From Rhodospirillaceae bacterium (lineage in GTDB: Bacteria > Pseudomonadota > Alphaproteobacteria > UBA8366 > Aestuariispiraceae), in NCBI GenBank assembly GCA_002709955.1, contig PAQY01000005.1, forward strand, positions 62,001 through 126,000: 64,000 nucleotides of DNA, read 5' to 3'. Of the stretch, positions 47,082 to 58,552 are shown piece after piece (within the stretch, counting starts at the first letter, position 1; the number at the start of each line of letters is the position of its first letter). The position numbers and the translations under genes were made by a program. The notes beneath the pieces are model-generated. The model searched no databases. It saw only the letters and a list, made by a program, of their open reading frames with translations, and was not told where the DNA came from.

Positions 47082-47834
47082 TTATGGACGCAAAACATGG
47101 GTATGGGTGGCGTCATAAAGCTTGCTGTCGTCAAACCCTTCCGGATTGAGGACGCGCCCGACCAGAATCAAGGCGGTGCGGGTGATGCCGGATGCTTTCA
47201 CCTTGGGCCGGATGTCCCCCAATGTGCCTTCGATAAAGGCCTGATCGGGCCAGCCGACGCGATACGCGATCACGACCGGACAGTCCGCGCCATAATGGGG
47301 CGTTAATTCCCGCACGACCTTCGCCAGATTGTTGATCGACAGATGGATCGCCAGCGTCGCACCACTGCGCCCCAGCGTGTCCAAATCTTCGCCCTGTGGC
47401 ATGCCAGACGCCCGCACCGCCGTTCGGGTGATGATCACCGTCTGGCCAACACCGGCCAGGGTCAGTTCCCGTTTTAACGCCGCCGCTGCCGCGGCATAGG
47501 CCGACACGCCCGGTGTCACATCATAGTCAATGCCCAGCGCATCCAGACGCCGCATCTGTTCCGCCGTTGCGCCATAAATGGACGGATCGCCAGAATGCAC
47601 CCGCGCAACATTCAGCCCCCTGGCATGGGCATCCTGAATCTCTGCAATAATTTCTTCCAGATTGAGCGGGGCGGTATCAATCACCCGCGCCCCGGCTGGT
47701 GCCTCTGCCACAACTTCCGCCGGCACCAGAGATCCCGCATACAGGCAAACCGGGCAGGATTGAATCAGCTTCAATCCCCGCACCGTAATCAAATCCGGCG
47801 CGCCGGGTCCTGCTCCAATAAAATGAACTGTCAT
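47082..47834 (-). CDS. cobM: Precorrin-4/cobalt-precorrin-4 C11-methyltransferase
   Basis: CobM/CbiF adds a methyl group at C11 in the corrin ring pathway. The 250-aa SAM-dependent enzyme has GAGPGAPDLITVRG, ARVHSGDPSIYGA and VTPGVSAYAAAAAALKRELT. It is the last cob gene of the operon and is cut off from cobJ by the GxxExxY cassette, 27 bases upstream of the start. Confidence 0.96.
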   Translation of the reverse strand: MTVHFIGAGPGAPDLITVRGLKLIQSCPVCLYAGSLVPAEVVAEAPAGARVIDTAPLNLEEIIAEIQDAHARGLNVARVHSGDPSIYGATAEQMRRLDALGIDYDVTPGVSAYAAAAAALKRELTLAGVGQTVIITRTAVRASGMPQGEDLDTLGRSGATLAIHLSINNLAKVVRELTPHYGADCPVVIAYRVGWPDQAFIEGTLGDIRPKVKASGITRTALILVGRVLNPEGFDDSKLYDATHTHVLRP

Positions 47835-47861
47835 ATAAAATTACCTTTTCGAATAGTTTGG

Positions 47862-47896
47862 AACCGCAAAGGGCGCGGAGGAGGCGCAAAGGACGC
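47862..47896. repeat. Left arm of 35-bp inverted repeat
   Basis: Reverse complement of 48307-48341 with no mismatch. Begins AACCGCAAAGGGCGCGG and ends CGCAAAGGACGC. The identity stops abruptly at both ends. Confidence 0.95.
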
Positions 47897-47905
47897 GAAG
47901 TAAAG

Positions 47906-48292
47906 TTAGCGATCGTCCAGCCCATTTACGAATCGCTGAATTCCGTTCTTGATCCTGGATGTATTAAAGTTAATCAAAAACCCCAGCCGATAGGGTCCTA
48001 GCTTCAAATAGCTCAAGACTTGGGCCCGATGAACATCGGTGATTGTCTCAACCGATTTTAACTCAACAACAACCAACTCATTGACAAGCATATCCAATCG
48101 GTACCCACGCTCCATAACCAGCCCTTTGTATGTCAGCGGAAGAGCCTTTTGGGTTTCAACAAACAGGCCACGTTCGGATAACTCATAGGCCAAACAAGTT
48201 TCATACGCTCCTTCAAGCAGTCCAGGCCCTAGTGCCCGATGCACCGACAGCGCTGAATCTATAATCTGCTTTCCAATCTGATTCTCATCCAT
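47906..48292 (-). CDS. GxxExxY family protein
   Basis: A 128-aa protein with the family motif GPGLLEGAYETCL (G-x-x-E-x-x-Y, residue about 24), then DMLVNELVVVELKSVETI, a D-E-K arrangement like a PD-(D/E)XK nuclease fold, and QVLSYLKLGPYRLGFLINFN. The function is unknown; family members often occur between short CGCAAAGG-type repeats, as here. The ATG at 48292 has AAGGA 8 bases upstream. It is the only gene of the cassette and has the same direction as the cob operon. Confidence 0.9.
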   Translation of the reverse strand: MDENQIGKQIIDSALSVHRALGPGLLEGAYETCLAYELSERGLFVETQKALPLTYKGLVMERGYRLDMLVNELVVVELKSVETITDVHRAQVLSYLKLGPYRLGFLINFNTSRIKNGIQRFVNGLDDR

Positions 48293-48306
48293 AATCAATT
48301 TCCTTG

Positions 48307-48341
48307 GCGTCCTTTGCGCCTCCTCCGCGCCCTTTGCGGTT
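48307..48341. repeat. Right arm of 35-bp inverted repeat
   Basis: Reverse complement of 47862-47896. It ends eight bases before the stop codon of the cobJ fusion gene, so the cassette just misses that gene. Confidence 0.95.
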
Positions 48342-48348
48342 AAAGTTT

Positions 48349-50160
48349 CTATAACCGCTTATCTGCATAGCCGCGCGGGGTGAAGGCGCGGGGTGTGCCG
48401 GCATGGTCGAAGGCCCGCGTTGTGGAACTTCCGATCACCACCAGGGTGAACATATCCACCACGGACGGGTCGAAATCCTGCAAGGTTGTGACCGTCACGC
48501 TTTCTTCCGGGCGGCCCAATTGGCGACACAGGGCGACCGGCGTTGTTGGTGGACGTTGCGTCAGAAAGACTTCACGCGCTTCTGGCAGTAATGTGCGGCG
48601 GCGCTTGCTTTGGGGATTATAGAAGGCGGTGACAAAATCCCCCTGGGCGGCAGCGGCCAGACGTTGGCGGATCGCTGCAACCGGCGTCAGCAGATCTGAC
48701 AGGCTGATCAGGCAGAAATCATGCCCCATCGGGGCCCCCAGGCGCGCAGCGGCCAGTTGAAAGGCGGAAATACCGGGCACAACCTCAACATCCACACCCA
48801 TAAGGTTGCGATCTTGCGTTTCTGCCAGAAGCTCGAAAACTAGGGTTGCCAAGGCATAGATACCCGGATCACCAGAGCAGACCAGGGAAACCGTCTGTCC
48901 TTGTGCCGCCAGAGCCAGAGCCTTTGCCGCCCGGGCCTCTTCTGCACCCAGATCGGACTCATAGACCGGTTTGTCCCCGATCAGATCAGCGGCGAGATCC
49001 AGATACAGCCGATACCCCACCACCGCATCTGACGCCAGAATGGCCCGCGCCGCTGCCCCGGTGCGATAGGCCGCATCCCCAGGTCCAACCCCCACGACGA
49101 AGAGCCGCCCCGGCGCGCGCCCCGCACTGATATCCACAGACGCACCCTGTGCCCGCGCAATGGCGCAGGTATAGGGGCCGCTGCGGCGCTTTTCCGTGAC
49201 AAATCGCGCCGTGCGGCCTGCCAGGGCCAGCGCGGATGCCTCAGCCACGCCATGACAGCCGATTTCCTGAAAAACCACATCAGACGGATTGGGTAGATGG
49301 GGTGTCAGGGCTTCCAATTCCGCAGCCGTGAACAGGCGAATGGGTCGATCCAGAGCCTGAGAAACTGCCTTCAGCGCCGCCTCATCCCCCTTTAAATCCA
49401 CCGTGCCGATGGCGGCGATGGCAGACGGGTCCAGCCCGGTATCAGCCAAAACAGACTGCACGAAGTCCACCAGACCGTCTGCCGGGGCGTGGCGTTCACA
49501 GCCAATACCAATGGCCAGGCTGGGGGGCGTCAAAACCACCTGACCCGTGGCGGGTTCCACCTGTCGATCCGTGATCAGGACCTGCGGCACCTCGCCCGGC
49601 CCCACCGCCTGAAACACTTCCTTGGGTGGCCAGCTTGGATCACCGCATTCCGGGCGCAGGGTTATCGTTTCCCCGGCCAACAGCCGTGCCGTCACAGATT
49701 TCACGGCCTGCGGGGTTTTCAGGGTCCAGCCTGCGGGTGGATCATCCAGCGCGAATCCCAGTGTGCGGTCCCCGGCGGTCGTGATGGCGGCTGTCCCGCC
49801 CAATCCGTCAGCCAGCCGGGTTGCCAGAGAATTTGCCCCGCGATGGCCCCCCAACAAAGGCACCACCATGGTTCCGTCTTCCGACACGGACAGAACCGGC
49901 GCATCCTGCCACTTATCCGCGGCCAGGGGGGCCAGCGCCCGAATCAAGATCCCCGCCGCACACAGGCCGATCACCGTCCAGCCCTGGGCATATAATTCCC
50001 GCAGGCAGGCCAGCGTATCGTCAAAAACATGATCCGCACCGGTCACGCGGTCCGCCTTGCCGTAAATAACAGCACTGGGCAGGATTTCACGGGCGCGCAA
50101 GGCGGTTTCTGCGCCGCGCTGGGTCAGCGCGACCAGGGCAATGGGGGCCTGATGGGTCAT
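48349..50160 (-). CDS. cobJ: CbiG-CobJ fusion: cobalt-precorrin-5A hydrolase/precorrin-3B C17-methyltransferase
   Basis: A 603-aa fusion. Residues 1-340 are CbiG-like (GWTVIGLCAAGILIRALAP; VPLLGGHRGANSLATRLAD; SLAIGIGCERHAPADGL), which opens the lactone ring of cobalt-precorrin-5A. Residues about 345-600 are CobJ, the C17 methyltransferase (LFVVGVGPGDAAYRTGAA; VCSGDPGIYALATLV; FYNPQSKRR). Fusions of these two are known. It overlaps cobI by four bases. The stop lies 7 bases from the right repeat of the GxxExxY cassette. Confidence 0.93.
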   Translation of the reverse strand: MTHQAPIALVALTQRGAETALRAREILPSAVIYGKADRVTGADHVFDDTLACLRELYAQGWTVIGLCAAGILIRALAPLAADKWQDAPVLSVSEDGTMVVPLLGGHRGANSLATRLADGLGGTAAITTAGDRTLGFALDDPPAGWTLKTPQAVKSVTARLLAGETITLRPECGDPSWPPKEVFQAVGPGEVPQVLITDRQVEPATGQVVLTPPSLAIGIGCERHAPADGLVDFVQSVLADTGLDPSAIAAIGTVDLKGDEAALKAVSQALDRPIRLFTAAELEALTPHLPNPSDVVFQEIGCHGVAEASALALAGRTARFVTEKRRSGPYTCAIARAQGASVDISAGRAPGRLFVVGVGPGDAAYRTGAAARAILASDAVVGYRLYLDLAADLIGDKPVYESDLGAEEARAAKALALAAQGQTVSLVCSGDPGIYALATLVFELLAETQDRNLMGVDVEVVPGISAFQLAAARLGAPMGHDFCLISLSDLLTPVAAIRQRLAAAAQGDFVTAFYNPQSKRRRTLLPEAREVFLTQRPPTTPVALCRQLGRPEESVTVTTLQDFDPSVVDMFTLVVIGSSTTRAFDHAGTPRAFTPRGYADKRL

Positions 50161-52769: not shown

Positions 52770-54014
52770 TCAATCCGGCTTCGGCAATGTCACACCTTCC
52801 GTCATGCTGCGCGGACCATGCGGATGATCCGCCTGAGGATAGGGATGGTGGTGGTGATCGTGCCCATGATCATGCCCGTGCCCGTGAGAATGACCATGTC
52901 CGTGGTCATGGTCATGGTCATGCCCATGGTCATGACTGTGGCCGTGCTGGTGGTCGTGCCCATGGTCATGAGAATGGTCGTGGTCATGCGGGTGTCCATG
53001 GTCATGATTGTGCTCATGGTCATGCCCGTGCCCATGATCGTGGCTGTGCCCATGATCTTCCGCGGGACCGGTGCCGATGCCTTCGACATGATGGTGATGG
53101 CTTTCCTGCGGCAGGCCAACCTCGTCTTCGAAGCCCAGAACCTGATTGCGGTATTTGCACATCTGACAGTTCATGTTGTTCGCGCCCTCAACAATCTCCA
53201 TCAGGCGCTCTGCAAAGGTTTCCATGACCATCGGATGATCATTCAGATAACCGGCCTTCACGAATTCCAGCTCCGGGTGCCGGGCGGCGACCTGGTCTGT
53301 GTAATCATAGATGCGTTTGATCAGAATGCCGGTGAACAGGAAATAGGGGAACACGACGATCCGCTTGTATCCCATACGGGCGCAATGCTCCAGGGCGGGC
53401 TCTACCAGCGGGAAGGTCACACCGGAATACCCGACTTCCATCCAGCCAAAGCCCATGCCCTCCCACAGCATCCGTGCCACTTTGGCGACATTGGAGTTGG
53501 CATCGGGATCAGACGCGCCACGTCCGATGACGCATAACAGGGTTTCATGCCGGGAAATGGCGGGATCCAGCGGGGCCAGGGCCTCTTCGATGCGCCCGGC
53601 AGCCGCCTTCAGCATTTTCAGATCCACCGCCAGTTCGCGACCATATTTGATCGACAGGCCGGGATTTTGTGCCTGATAGGTGTTCAGGACGGACGGGATG
53701 TCATTTTTCGCATGGCCGGCGGCAAACAGCATGCCCGGCACGGCCAGCACGCGGGTCACGCCCTGCTCTTGCAGCTTATCCAGACCAGTGCGGATGATCG
53801 GTGTCGCGAATTCCAGAAAGCCATATTCGACCGGCAGATGCGGAAAGCGGGCCTTCATGGCCTGGGCGATCTGCTCAAATTCCGACACGGCACCAACGTC
53901 GCGGCTGCCATGGCCACAGATCATGATGCCGACCTTGTCGTCGTCAATATGGGTAGGAATCGAAAATTGGGTATCGACGGTCGCTGAGAGCGCCGCGGCT
54001 GTATTATTGGACAT
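52770..54014 (-). CDS. cbiX: Sirohydrochlorin cobaltochelatase CbiX, with MxCxxC motif and His-rich tail
   Basis: A 414-aa long-type CbiX, which inserts cobalt into sirohydrochlorin at the start of the cobalt-early corrin pathway. Two chelatase halves are seen: IMICGHGSRDVGAVSEFEQI near residue 32 and LLCVIGRGASDPDAN near 160. MNCQMC (281-286) matches the Fe-S motif of long CbiX. Residues about 318-400 are almost only His, Asp and Gly, a likely cobalt or nickel store. The ATG at 54014 has a GGGGG site; the open frame reaches 54107. It is the first gene of the operon, which lacks cbiD, cbiJ/cobK, cbiA, cbiB and cobNST in this window. Confidence 0.93.
   Translation of the reverse strand: MSNNTAAALSATVDTQFSIPTHIDDDKVGIMICGHGSRDVGAVSEFEQIAQAMKARFPHLPVEYGFLEFATPIIRTGLDKLQEQGVTRVLAVPGMLFAAGHAKNDIPSVLNTYQAQNPGLSIKYGRELAVDLKMLKAAAGRIEEALAPLDPAISRHETLLCVIGRGASDPDANSNVAKVARMLWEGMGFGWMEVGYSGVTFPLVEPALEHCARMGYKRIVVFPYFLFTGILIKRIYDYTDQVAARHPELEFVKAGYLNDHPMVMETFAERLMEIVEGANNMNCQMCKYRNQVLGFEDEVGLPQESHHHHVEGIGTGPAEDHGHSHDHGHGHDHEHNHDHGHPHDHDHSHDHGHDHQHGHSHDHGHDHDHDHGHGHSHGHGHDHGHDHHHHPYPQADHPHGPRSMTEGVTLPKPD
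52814..53057. repeat. Low-complexity CATGGTCATG-type DNA encoding the CbiX His-rich tail
   Basis: About 240 bases built from short variants of CATGGTCATG/CATGGCC units, corresponding to His-Asp-Gly-rich codons on the minus strand. Spacing is irregular, so it is not a CRISPR array. Such DNA can change length by slippage while staying in frame. Confidence 0.75.
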
Positions 54015-54080
54015 ATTTGCCCCCGTCCTGGCTTGGGTTCTTATTAAGGCTCCACGCATCCGACCCAAATTTGCCCCCGT
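54015..54080. repeat. Two copies of ATTTGCCCCCGT upstream of cbiX
   Basis: The 12-mer occurs at 54015-54026 (touching the cbiX ATG) and at 54069-54080, in the same orientation. It lies in the leader of the cobalamin operon. The first copy supplies the ribosome site of cbiX. The purpose of the second is unknown; it may be a duplication or an alternative start region. Confidence 0.6.
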
Positions 54081-54182
54081 GTCGGTGGGGTGCTCATGGA
54101 CTGACACCTAACAGACCCAACACGCCCCGTCAGCCGAAAAACCGTCCGGCTTTAAAAGGTTTGCGACAGGGCCGGATTTACA

Positions 54183-54777: not shown

Positions 54778-56130
54778 CTATAGTGCGTCGCCCTGGACTT
54801 CCAACACCCTGCGCGGCCAGCGGATCAGGATCTCCGCACCCTTGCGATTGCGAAACACGGTTTCCGCCCCGATGCGTTCCAACAGGGTTGTGGCGATAAA
54901 TACCCCTAAACCCATATGGCCATTCTGACCAGCCCGGGTCGACAGATACGGTTCCCCCAACGTCTGTAACACGGCATTGGAAAATCCAGGCCCGTCGTCA
55001 TGAATGGAAATCCAGACATCATTTTTGGTCCAATACAGGCGCACCGTAACGGCGCTGCGGGCGAACTGTCCGGCATTGGATATGAAATTGCCCAGGCCAT
55101 GCAGGAATTCCGGCGTGCGCGGCACCAACGGTTCCGCCCCGTCACAGGATTCATCGATCTGAACATCCAGGGTGATCCTGTCTGGCACATGTTCATCGCT
55201 GGCAATCTCAACCAGATTTGACAGGGGCAGAATTTCAAACGGATCCCCGGTCGCCGCGCCTGGACGCGAAGACAGGCCAACCAATATATCCCGGCATCGA
55301 TCCGACTGGCTCTTCAACAGGGCGACATCTTCATATAAGGGACTGTTCGGCGGGACCGTGCGCATCAATTCCTGGGACACCACCGCGATTGTCGCCAGGG
55401 GGGAACCCAATTCATGCGCCGCCGCCGCGGCCAGCGTGCCCAGGGCGGACAATTCCCGCTCCCGCGCCAGGGCATCGTCAGATTCGGACAGGGCATCGGT
55501 CAAGCGCCTGGATTCTTCCGATGCGGTCCACACAAAGGTCGCGATAAAAACCAGCGACATGGTGATCGCGGTCCATATCCCCAGGCGATAGACAAAGGGC
55601 AGTGCGACGCCCAAAGGGGTCTCCCACGGCAGGGGCAGATGCACAAAGGACAGCACTGTTGCGGCCCCCACCGCCAGGGCGGTCAGCGCCAGGGTCGCGC
55701 GCCGGGACAAAATCGTTGCAGAAACCGTGACCGGGGCCAGCAACAACAGGGCAAACGGGTTTTGCAATCCACCCGTGAAACCAATCAGGCTGGCCAATTG
55801 CAAAAGATCAAACCCCAGAACCAGCGATGCGCGCCTTTGGCTCAATCGTCGGGGGCGCGACGCCATCAAGACCAGATTTGATATCGCCAGCGCCGTGGTC
55901 GCCAACAGACAGGGCAACAGGGCAAAGGGAAATTCAAACGCGATGGAGACAATAATGACCGTCAATAACTGACCGGCTACCGCGATCCACCGCAGCATGA
56001 CCAGGGTCGACAGGCTTAACCCGATGGGTCGTGCCTCTGCAACACGGGCCTGGTGCAGTGCGCGCTTGACCCGAAACCACCCCGTGGGTCGGGAAAAGTC
56101 ACGGGTCGATGAATTGTGATTCTGATCCAT
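54778..56130 (-). CDS. regB: Redox sensor histidine kinase RegB/PrrB/ActS type
   Basis: A 450-aa membrane kinase. Six membrane helices lie in residues about 40-205, with the ubiquinone-binding signature GGLQNPF at 120-126. The H-box His is 239 in AAAAHELGSPL, and Cys279 in SDRCRDIL matches the redox-active Cys of RegB. The ATPase domain has NFISNAGQFA, DDGPGF and GLGVFIATTLLERIG. It senses quinone and redox state and phosphorylates RegA. The senC gene that separates the pair in Rhodobacter is absent. The 119 bases between this gene and the next hold only a weak GGGAT/ATCCC hairpin. Confidence 0.95.
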   Translation of the reverse strand: MDQNHNSSTRDFSRPTGWFRVKRALHQARVAEARPIGLSLSTLVMLRWIAVAGQLLTVIIVSIAFEFPFALLPCLLATTALAISNLVLMASRPRRLSQRRASLVLGFDLLQLASLIGFTGGLQNPFALLLLAPVTVSATILSRRATLALTALAVGAATVLSFVHLPLPWETPLGVALPFVYRLGIWTAITMSLVFIATFVWTASEESRRLTDALSESDDALARERELSALGTLAAAAAHELGSPLATIAVVSQELMRTVPPNSPLYEDVALLKSQSDRCRDILVGLSSRPGAATGDPFEILPLSNLVEIASDEHVPDRITLDVQIDESCDGAEPLVPRTPEFLHGLGNFISNAGQFARSAVTVRLYWTKNDVWISIHDDGPGFSNAVLQTLGEPYLSTRAGQNGHMGLGVFIATTLLERIGAETVFRNRKGAEILIRWPRRVLEVQGDAL

Positions 56131-56249
56131 TGTAGACGCCTTGGGGCAACCAGGCCGTGCCGTGCAGGACCCATTGGGGGTTCACGCCAAAGCTTAGGCA
56201 GTCATCCCCGTCGCGTCACCCTAAAATGACCGGCAGGGGATAATCATCC

Positions 56250-57410
56250 CTATTGAAAATCCTGCCCATTGATCGCAATGATGAAGTCATAGAAGGGCTC
56301 TAATTCCGTCGCCCGCAGCGCACGCGGCTTTTTGTCGCTGACATCGGCCCAGGCATTGGCGGTATGCGCCAGAACACCCAATGCCAGACCAACCGTCAGA
56401 AAATTCTTTGGGGCTTCCCGCAGGAACTGCTGAAACGGCCTGGGGTCGTCCTTTTCTATCAGCTCATCAAAGGCCAGATTGTAATTCTTGATGATGCTCA
56501 TCACCGTGGAATGCGTGGTTCGGATCAGGCTGCGCGACTGGTCCCGCCGAAATTTAAACCGATCCATAGCGGAATCCGTCATCGTCTCCCGGTCTTTGGG
56601 CATCGAATCCGATGACCCCAGCCACCGAAAGAAATCGTATAGCAGGGGCTTATAGCGTTCATACTGAAATTCATAGTAATTGATCCCCTTCCAGGCAAAG
56701 AGGAATTGTTTGGTTTGCGATTCATCCAACCGGAAGCTGCGGATCAGGCCGCGCGACCCATCCGTTTCCTCGCCCTGCCAGATCGCATCAACCACCGCGC
56801 CGGTCATCAAGCGCTGACCTTCGTCATCCTTATCGTGGTTTTCACCAAGATAGGCCTGATAGACATCCATATTATTGGCAGAATTGGCTTTCGCCACCAG
56901 CACACTGATCTTGTCCAACACGGGGCGGCGGATCAGCATCCAGTCCTTTTCCGTGATTTCAAAATAGCTGGGCGAAATACTGCGCTCAACCTCAACTTCC
57001 CGACGCTGCGATAACAGCAGGAACGGATCAAAGGTCGGAACTTTGGTCAGGATTTCCAGGACCCGCTGATCATGGGCAGACAGGGAATCCGCTGATTTTA
57101 TCGCACCACGCTTGGCCAGAACCTTAACAATGCGATCCGGGTCCGCCAGGGTCGATTCGCCGCCCTGATCGACTTCCAGGTCGTTATATGGGAAATAAAC
57201 GCGGGTTGAGACGAAAACCTCATCCTCGTGATCATTCTGTGTGACTTCTTTGAAAAATATGCCCAGATTCAACGTGGAAAGATCAAACATCTTCCCCGGC
57301 GGCGGCTCATCAGGCGCACTGCCTTCCTTTAGTCCCAGATAGACTGCCCTTGCGTCAAAACACAAGAACCGCCCCGACCGAAGGAGCGTTTTCAATGCGC
57401 GGCGGTTCAT
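56250..57410 (-). CDS. Conserved-looking protein of unknown function
   Basis: I do not recognise this 386-aa protein. It has no signal peptide, no clear membrane helix and no Cys-rich motif. Aromatic and charged segments dominate (FLFAWKGINYYEFQYERYKPLLYDFF), and it is likely cytoplasmic. Codon use resembles the neighbours, so it looks native. It is divergent from the PilZ gene and upstream of regB on the same strand; no function is proposed. Confidence 0.7.
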   Translation of the reverse strand: MNRRALKTLLRSGRFLCFDARAVYLGLKEGSAPDEPPPGKMFDLSTLNLGIFFKEVTQNDHEDEVFVSTRVYFPYNDLEVDQGGESTLADPDRIVKVLAKRGAIKSADSLSAHDQRVLEILTKVPTFDPFLLLSQRREVEVERSISPSYFEITEKDWMLIRRPVLDKISVLVAKANSANNMDVYQAYLGENHDKDDEGQRLMTGAVVDAIWQGEETDGSRGLIRSFRLDESQTKQFLFAWKGINYYEFQYERYKPLLYDFFRWLGSSDSMPKDRETMTDSAMDRFKFRRDQSRSLIRTTHSTVMSIIKNYNLAFDELIEKDDPRPFQQFLREAPKNFLTVGLALGVLAHTANAWADVSDKKPRALRATELEPFYDFIIAINGQDFQ

Positions 57411-57522
57411 CCTGCCGAAAGCCTCTCACAACCGTCGCCAAAAGGCGATCCCCATCCAAACCAATGATGTATCAGGGTTTCCCCAAAGCACAATAGGCGA
57501 CTATACTAGGGAGAGATTTAGG

Positions 57523-57924
57523 ATGGATACAAGACCAAGCAATCGGCAATCGTCCATCATGGTTAATATTCTGACAGAGGCCGTTTACCGGATGCGACAT
57601 ACCGAAGCACGATCAGAAGCACGATATCCTTTTCGCGCAGGGTTCATTGAAATTGAAGACCGACCCTTGCCGCTGGATGATCTGAGCGCCAATGGCCTGG
57701 GTTTCCAGGCGGAAGATCCCAGTGTTTTTGAGACCGGGCAGGAGATCAATGGATTTCTGGTCTTACAACAAGTGGAAGAACAGTATGAGATACCGGTGAA
57801 GCTGACCGTCCGCCGGGTTGTCGACGGTCGTATCGGGTGTTCGATGGTATTCCTTTTTCCCAACCATATTGATACGATCAAGGGCTTTATATCGAAACTG
57901 GAACAATCACAGCCAAAGGAATAG
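57523..57924 (+). CDS. PilZ domain protein
   Basis: A 133-aa protein with a PilZ domain over residues about 26-125. The c-di-GMP-binding motifs are intact: RSEAR (RxxxR, residues 30-34 approx.) and DLSANGLGF (D-x-S-x-x-G, about 54). It would bind c-di-GMP in the cytoplasm; its partner is unknown. It lies 7 bases before the nitrile hydratase-like genes, so it may be in their transcript. Two diguanylate cyclases are encoded elsewhere in the window. Confidence 0.85.
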   Translation: MDTRPSNRQSSIMVNILTEAVYRMRHTEARSEARYPFRAGFIEIEDRPLPLDDLSANGLGFQAEDPSVFETGQEINGFLVLQQVEEQYEIPVKLTVRRVVDGRIGCSMVFLFPNHIDTIKGFISKLEQSQPKE

Positions 57925-57931
57925 AGGCATC

Positions 57932-58267
57932 GTGATAGAGCGAAGATACCATGATATGGGCGGCCTGGATGCAGGCCCTGTTGCCCGCACGGAACACACG
58001 TTCGAACCCTGGGAAAATAAAACAGACGCCATCGTGCGCCTGTTGTCCAACCCCAAGAGCGGCCCCCTGATGCGCATCGATGAATTGCGCCGGGGCATCG
58101 AAGATATGGGGCCCGGTATTTATGACGAACTGACCTATTATGAACGCTGGATCGCATCGGTCGCCAATGTGCTGATCGAAAAAGGCGTGATCCATGTGGA
58201 CGAGCTGGGCCGCAAGCTGGAAGAAGTCAAAGCCCGCCACACCCCCGCCTCTTCGCCGGAGCATTAA
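57932..58267 (+). CDS. Nitrile hydratase/thiocyanate hydrolase beta-type subunit, N-terminal half
   Basis: A 111-aa protein equal to the N-terminal half of nitrile hydratase beta: MGGLDAGPVARTEH, PWENKTDAIVRLLS, RIDELRRGIEDMGPGIYDEL and YYERWIASVANVLIEKGVI. In thiocyanate hydrolase and toyocamycin nitrile hydratase this half is a separate subunit, as here. The start is a GTG at 57932 with an AGAGG site; ATG 57956 is an alternative. The next two genes complete the enzyme. Confidence 0.88.
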   Translation: MIERRYHDMGGLDAGPVARTEHTFEPWENKTDAIVRLLSNPKSGPLMRIDELRRGIEDMGPGIYDELTYYERWIASVANVLIEKGVIHVDELGRKLEEVKARHTPASSPEH

Positions 58268-58270
58268 GCC

Positions 58271-58552
58271 ATGCGATTTTCTGTCGGTGACGAAGTGCGG
58301 GTGCGCTGGGCCACACCCCCCGGTCACGTCCGCACCCCCTATTATTGCCGCGGCCTGTCTGGCCGGATTGAGCGGATTTGCGGGCAGTTCCACAATCCGG
58401 AAGAACTGGCCTATGGCCGGACCGGCGACACGGTTGTGACGCTGTATCGTGTCCGCTTTCAGCAAAAAACCCTGTGGCCCGACTATACCGGCCCTGAAAA
58501 AGACACTGTCGATATCGAAGTCTTTGAACACTGGCTGGAGACAGCGCAATGA
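58271..58552 (+). CDS. Nitrile hydratase/thiocyanate hydrolase subunit, C-terminal half of beta
   Basis: A 93-aa protein matching the SH3-like C-terminal half of nitrile hydratase beta: FSVGDEVRVRWATPPGHVRTPYYCRG, then GRIERICGQFHNPEELAYG and YRVRF. The Arg in YYCRG is the residue that contacts the active-site cysteine ligands in known structures. It lies 3 bases after the N-half gene and overlaps the metal subunit by four bases. Confidence 0.88.
   Translation: MRFSVGDEVRVRWATPPGHVRTPYYCRGLSGRIERICGQFHNPEELAYGRTGDTVVTLYRVRFQQKTLWPDYTGPEKDTVDIEVFEHWLETAQ

Follow-up and report, generated by a model that had tools for sequence, protein, structure and literature searches.

Background

RAYTs are thought to mobilise REPs, and it is the repeats that move, their enzyme gene rarely doing so. 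A small ORF inside a long stem is also familiar from the 23S rRNA intervening sequences. As described in the portions of the literature available to us, REPIN-RAYT systems combine an enzyme gene that lies near repeats or is flanked by them, dispersed inverted doublets of these repeats that form hairpins, and co-evolution of the enzyme with its repeats (PMC3116915, PMC3733652, PMC8266576); TnpA-REP belongs to the HuH superfamily in the same portions (PMC8266576). CGTC-type REPs, palindromes found mainly in Alphaproteobacteria, are said in the available part of their description to lack a dedicated transposase (PMC3733652).

Here we describe a small repeat-flanked gene in the cobalamin operon of a Rhodospirillaceae bacterium (GenBank assembly GCA_002709955.1, genome G000 below), within a 64,000-nucleotide stretch of contig PAQY01000005.1 (positions 62,001 to 126,000) that is called the window. 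Literature found under the names GxxExxY and PDDEXK_3 contained, in its accessible portions, nothing on what the protein does, and searches by repeat letters, accession, family names and mixed terms returned nothing linking these repeats with this gene. Our analysis suggests that the cassette and its relatives are tiny mobile DNA elements of a class that is widespread and little described. If recognition of its own arms and spread of the repeats are both true, the system would account for a large class of short repeats in bacteria, would bring a nuclease fold into the set of enzymes behind REP-like DNA, and would provide a small protein whose DNA code is readable and testable through four residues.

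Results

The cassette lies between two cobalamin genes on the minus strand, a CbiG-CobJ fusion upstream (48349-50160) and cobM downstream (47082-47834), both assigned by NCBIfam. A sequence-only reading of the window had proposed an exact inverted repeat at 47862-47896 and 48307-48341, and these segments are indeed reverse complements at 35/35 bases. In a repeat search the pair reached 43 nt at 95% identity, giving a cobM-side arm at 47862-47904 on the plus strand and its inverted copy, the cobJ-side arm, at 48299-48341 on the minus strand. The cobM-side arm, perfect over its outer 35 bases, is composed of tandem units of ~10 nt that read CGCAAAG, CGCGGAG, CGCAAAG, and CGCGAAG. When flanks were scored against each other for inverted matching (+1 per match), the maximum among 1,360 control windows was 13, compared with 35 matches in a row for the cassette, so the inverted repeat is not a product of chance. 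The enclosed gene (47906-48298, minus strand) runs in the same direction as both host genes and encodes 130 amino acids from a TTG start, with a second candidate start, ATG at 48292, two codons inside it. On the minus strand, an AAGGA seen by eye at 48301-48305, at the inner edge of the cobJ-side arm, is a possible ribosome-binding site for this gene. ORFs further upstream of cobJ overlap one another by a few bases. Also in this operon region, an upstream ORF at 52770-54107 of the window has a long histidine-rich tail. As RNA, the cassette region folds with z = -7.5, which is expected of any such inverted repeat.

The single enclosed gene had been read as a GxxExxY protein, an assignment confirmed by matches to PDDEXK_3 of Pfam (PF13366; E 6e-41; 139.8 bits vs a curated cut-off of 22) and to GxxExxY of NCBIfam (TIGR04256; E 6e-42; 142.6 bits vs 35). 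PDDEXK_3 was the sole match, and no HuH/Y1 transposase was found in the protein. Its proposed nuclease-like D-E-K pattern also holds in alignment A2, where E29, D69, E79, and K81 are invariant across 83 sequences selected to contain no stops (the window protein, 69 from the 75 stop-free loci, and 13 from the class), and Q93 and Y97 are nearly so; one of the 15 sequences in alignment A1 has T at position 81. The AlphaFold2 model is confident (mean pLDDT 95). Foldseek placed two chains of SSO0001 (4ic1), which we take to be Cas4, at the top with E 0.01 and 0.017, followed by AddAB at rank 8 and lambda exonuclease at rank 16 with other nucleases between them; none of the matches reached E 0.001, and the best, at E 0.01, is weak. 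A PDB sequence search with A2 gave a single, unrelated match (E 0.37). The E, D, ExK, and QxxxY pattern presumably places the protein in the QxxxY group with the Cas4, lambda exonuclease, and AddB nucleases, and its best reading, from conserved residues and the predicted fold, is a single-domain PD-(D/E)XK nuclease of this group.

Comparison of the same junction in related genomes revealed an empty site. In G001, a relative in the genus, cobJ and cobM overlap at ATGA and the insert is absent; no arm unit is visible there. A GxxExxY search at E 0.1 had no match in G001 and G002, one each in G003 and G004, and one clear and one marginal match in G005. The G004 cassette is identical in kind to that of G000, while G003 and G005 carry a different cassette with other arms at the cobJ-cobM junction; the G003 protein shares 63% identity with the window protein, and the cobJ frame of G003 continues into the arm when the sequence is read. 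The sequence-only reading had named, as findings that would speak against a mobile cassette, relatives that all carry it at this place with diverged arms, no other copies, and no empty site. An empty site and other copies exist, and only the occurrence at the same place with diverged arms holds, in G003 and G005. In an alphaproteobacterium of another family (G159:C64), an armless-looking GxxExxY relative (L120) also appears, by eye, to sit between cobJ and cobM, with D replacing E79 and A replacing K81.

Between G000 and G004 the cassette differs by 2 positions in about 480 bases, plus one N, within a low-divergence tract (47800-48429) that reaches about 60-90 bp into the flanks. The aligned cobJ and cobM flanks differ at ~5% (86/~1,740), and the surrounding aligned 36 kb at 7.0%. 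Windows of 480 bases with at most 2 differences made up 40/1,750 overlapping windows, in ~3 tracts that include the cassette, and 1/74 non-overlapping windows was as similar as the cassette. Nearly identical sequence despite the 7% regional divergence is likewise found at 55721-56221 and 56981-58521 of the window. The G003 and G005 pair has no low-divergence tract, with 21/472 differences in the cassette, 56/750 in cobM, and 69/1,012 on the cobJ side; its gene looks constrained (dN/dS 0.10, from 16 differences).

The pentamer AGTTT, which had been noted two bases beyond each arm, is present on the plus strand at 47855-47859 and 48344-48348. Its suggested role as a target duplication is not supported: AGTTT is missing from the G001 junction and from the G003 and G005 flanks. 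Among 110 cassettes, with arm ends set by alignment, terminal direct repeats had no fixed length; their mean of 0.50 lies slightly above that of shuffled pairs (0.29, SD 0.08), and they reached at least 4 in 6/110.

A profile search of genome contigs found at least 586 GxxExxY relatives. The 80 retained for analysis span many phyla, with metagenome-assembled Methanosarcinales and Methanothrix among them, and GxxExxY relatives range from Bacteroidota to archaeal metagenome-assembled genomes. We found that their flanks, like those of class loci, carry inward-facing arms of tandem ~10-nt CRC-NN-AG units. From here on, ten incomplete or weak class loci (L107-L113, L119-L121), L202, L211, and L216 were left unused; enough flank was available for 136/138 loci, and in 94/136 the inverted flank matching exceeded the 99th percentile of 1,360 control windows. 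Inward units stood on both sides in 77/136 loci vs 2/1,360 control windows, a contrast that is partly fitted because the unit was defined by eye, although the controls were scored with the same definition. Units on any side were present in 115/136 loci vs 125/1,360 controls, and absent in 21/136. Further loci (98 of 100 usable) had units on both sides in 34/98 and on any side in 64/98. Some other subfamilies (GHGFLE, GYGFLE) have, by eye, CACNNAT-like arms. Loci L381, L382, L390, L395, and L398, from other GxxExxY subfamilies, apparently have arm units like CACGGATT, CACAGATT, or GGATTACAGG, again by eye.

The gene is codirectional with both neighbours in 79/108 loci vs 255/532 control genes, 30/138 loci being without a usable neighbour. 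Seven loci (L104, L114, L106, L162, L198, L152, L092) presumably lie between core-operon genes (carA-carB twice, hslV-hslU, trp, leu). Gene copies from one genome are seldom alike, with 2/114 pairs at 80% identity or more, both side by side, and the cassette itself therefore seems not to multiply quickly. The gene is not common on phages or plasmids, being found in 0/50,697 phage records, 8/72,556 plasmid records, and one locus of the viral contigs (one peptide pattern).

Copies of the arm occur without the gene. G000 has one PDDEXK_3 gene and 36 matches to a double-unit arm pattern with up to 3 mismatches; once the cassette's own two are set aside, 34 lie elsewhere, and a reversed control pattern gave 0. 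Further arm copies, which the sequence-only reading had advised looking for, exist in the same genome, and dispersed inverted doublets of the flanking repeat, as in REPIN-RAYT systems, are present. Solo elements read directly are hairpins with three or four units per arm around a short or medium spacer. Two of them, L439 (G184) and L440 (G052), are ~160-180 bp long with a second GC-rich palindrome between the arms. At 16 loci of G000, the arm motif stands, by eye, in mosaics with other palindromes; these mosaics (e.g. L036, L041, L042, L061) contain at least three other palindrome types, GTCATCCCGGAC, CATCCTGAGGAGGCGC, and CCCGCCTGCGCGGG. In the gene-less G002, the flanks of 6/12 arm clusters are adjacent or close, those of one more lie 2.2 kb apart, and 5/12 flank pairs were not both found on one contig. 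Alignment of five of the six close pairs showed that G002 lacks four of these clusters completely or nearly so, and most of the fifth. The description of the locus as a compact cassette is supported.

We then found that the letters of the arm unit follow those of the protein. Covariation was scored in 149/236 loci, with 80 excluded for fewer than three units and 7 for odd length. Base 2 of the unit (CAC or CGC) tracks residues 124-127: I124 occurs with CAC in 49/50 loci, N126 with CGC in 39/41, and L127 with CGC in 56/62. A tail rule, in which L, F, or M at 127 without I at 124 predicts CGC and anything else CAC, was correct in 143/149 loci (11/12, 62/65, 24/25, and 46/47 in four sets); it was formulated after all 149 had been seen, its columns already ranking top with the first 100. 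The window protein, with V124-N125-G126-L127, is assigned CGC-type arms by this rule. In a fresh set, made up mostly of other subfamilies that lack CRCNNAG units, 5/26 loci were usable and the rule was right in 4/5.

When the terminal columns were left out of tree building, the CAC/CGC type changed 25 times on the resulting tree. The best tree gives 25 independent pairs, of which on average 20.3 change in the same direction and 0.0 in the opposite (median p 2e-6); three other associated columns were not significant in this pair test. Well supported branches give 7 independent pairs (3.6 same, 0.0 opposite), too few for significance, so that enzyme-repeat co-evolution of the REPIN-RAYT kind is seen on the best tree with the well supported branches underpowered. 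A weaker link joins T9 to AG units: among 23 pairs, 9.0 changed in the same direction and 0 in the opposite one (p 0.004). Eight definitions were tried, and this one was the strongest and the sole one under 0.05 in the pair test. Applied to single arms, the tail rule holds in 117/124 loci for the upstream arm, which lies ~370 nt away from the codons of the tail, and in 126/131 for the downstream arm, a test that is not fully independent because the two arms agree in CAC/CGC type in 101/106 typable pairs (in middle letters, 79/106). The CAC/CGC type differs in 13/16 same-genome paralogue pairs below 60% identity, and in 1/3 closer pairs. The third gene of G125 had been expected to go with the CACCAAG hairpins and to carry CACCAAG arms, and its downstream arm instead reads CGCGGAG.

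Gene and repeats also tend to occur in the same genomes. In the class of G000, 22/385 genomes have the gene, and carriers make up 9/14 repeat-rich genomes vs 13/371 others, with phylogeny ignored. G236, with a tandem on one strand, and G399, where the control pattern scored almost as high, are excluded from the rich list, and pattern P2 was entered only for genomes with at least 3 repeats or already listed. Five genomes of the class with 10 to 47 repeats (G131, G223, G237, G264, G341) had no GxxExxY match at E 0.1, so either repeats persist after the gene is gone or a different enzyme mobilises them. A second sample comprised 257 genomes from the phylum of G419, the genome of the Flavobacterium locus L127, and 127/257 carry the gene. 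At least 3 CAC-type repeats were observed in 51/127 carriers vs 0/130 gene-less genomes; after removal of two arms per gene the contrast is 17/127 vs 0/130, and the reversed control pattern gave 3/127 vs 1/130. These genomes, like those of the class sample, are not phylogenetically independent, and the tests again ignore phylogeny.

Discussion

The covariation between protein tail and arm unit points to a nuclease that very probably recognises its own arms specifically, and the form recognised would be DNA rather than RNA. Whether it also mobilises the repeats is a closer call that, from co-occurrence and the empty sites, tips slightly in favour. The earlier proposal that the cassette is moved by its own product is consistent with the covariation and the co-occurrence, and this mover remains a candidate. 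As an overall explanation we find it rather likely, and best, that the cassette is a gene-bearing member of a family of small repeats, that its GxxExxY protein recognises the tandem units of its own arms, and that the gene-less hairpins, with arms around a short spacer, are non-autonomous relatives that may have spread by the protein or with its help. The cassette would have entered a cobJ-cobM junction like the one that overlaps at ATGA in G001, a junction that has hosted two different cassettes within the genus, and the G000/G004 copy was seemingly exchanged recently with short flanks, possibly by homing-like gene conversion or by ordinary recombination. The cassette gene probably depends on transcription of the cob operon, with a putative ribosome-binding site in the arm. 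More tentatively, at just under an even chance, the family is a kind of mobile DNA found in both bacteria and archaea, with a ~125-residue PD-(D/E)XK nuclease as its sole enzyme. This nuclease would read the iterated ~10-nt units of its terminal inverted repeats through a simple amino-acid code, in which residues 124-127 correspond to the second base and residue 9 to the middle letters, and would spread gene-less hairpins. Under this broader proposal, diverged copies in one genome that keep different unit letters would be several systems side by side without crossing.

Other explanations account for part of these observations. The protein could recognise the arms and not move them, as a resident nuclease acting on hairpins or cruciforms, with a HuH/Y1 RAYT or other enzyme spreading the repeats. 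Repeat-rich genomes without the gene, gene copies that are rarely alike within a genome, and the mosaics of the arm motif at 16 loci of G000, whose palindromes by eye resemble the CGTC REPs in the available part of PMC3733652, all suit this explanation; we nevertheless regard it as rather unlikely, given that none of the 130 gene-less genomes in the Flavobacterium phylum has three or more repeats and that unit letters differ between same-genome paralogues. A junction that holds two unlike cassettes in one genus and is empty in one relative, and a G000/G004 cassette that is nearly identical (2/480, with about 60-90 bp of flank) against 7% over 36 kb, could instead indicate a homing-like element, in which junctions lacking the cassette are cut by the nuclease and acquire it during repair, and the arms serve as recognition sites and hairpin ends. 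This is improbable in our judgement: the 36 kb contain two further low-divergence tracts, which makes ordinary recombination a possible cause of the cassette tract as well, the G003 and G005 cassettes diverge nearly as their flanks do (21/472 vs 56/750), and the empty G001 junction shows no arm unit.

We consider it very unlikely that the element is immobile and its arms act as RNA, a long hairpin that stabilises or processes the operon transcript. The strong fold (z -7.5) and the frequent codirectionality with both neighbours would fit such a role, but arm copies occur elsewhere without the gene, and the tail-to-unit link is letter-specific, beyond mere pairing. That the covariation is mere hitchhiking, the gene ends recombining together with the adjacent arm without any contact, seems most unlikely of all. 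The best residues do sit at both gene ends beside the arms, with a median of 9 nt from stop codon to nearest unit, and the two arms agree in type; the signal is, however, concentrated in residues 124-127 without fading, the tail matches the far and the near arm almost equally often, and T9 fits the far arm too.

Set against known systems, the cassette protein resembles the Cas4, lambda exonuclease, and AddB nuclease group in its Foldseek matches and its E, D, ExK, and QxxxY pattern, and departs from it in that the structural matches are weak and PDB sequences gave nothing useful. The 23S rRNA intervening sequences share the small ORF in a stem, whereas the cassette lies between protein genes and not in rRNA. 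MITEs with an autonomous TIR transposon likewise comprise gene-bearing and gene-less elements with similar terminal inverted repeats, but a TIR transposon encodes a DDE transposase, and the cassette has PDDEXK_3 as its only gene match, no DDE gene, and no clear target duplication. The CGTC-type REPs, as far as the accessible portion of their description goes, differ in sequence from the arms, and the similar-looking palindromes seen by eye in G000 merely neighbour the arm motif.

The comparison with REPIN-RAYT systems, drawn from the same partial sources, is the closest. Shared with the cassette are a repeat-flanked enzyme gene, dispersed inverted doublets, and co-evolution of enzyme and repeats, and the cassette family also resembles RAYTs in having a gene that rarely moves alongside mobile repeats (PMC8266576, PMC3116915, in the portions available). 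TnpA-REP is a HuH enzyme, in contrast to the PD-(D/E)XK gene of the cassette, and the cassette arms are tandem units of ~10 nt. The cassette works like a REPIN-RAYT pair and stands outside that family, because its gene is not a HuH enzyme.
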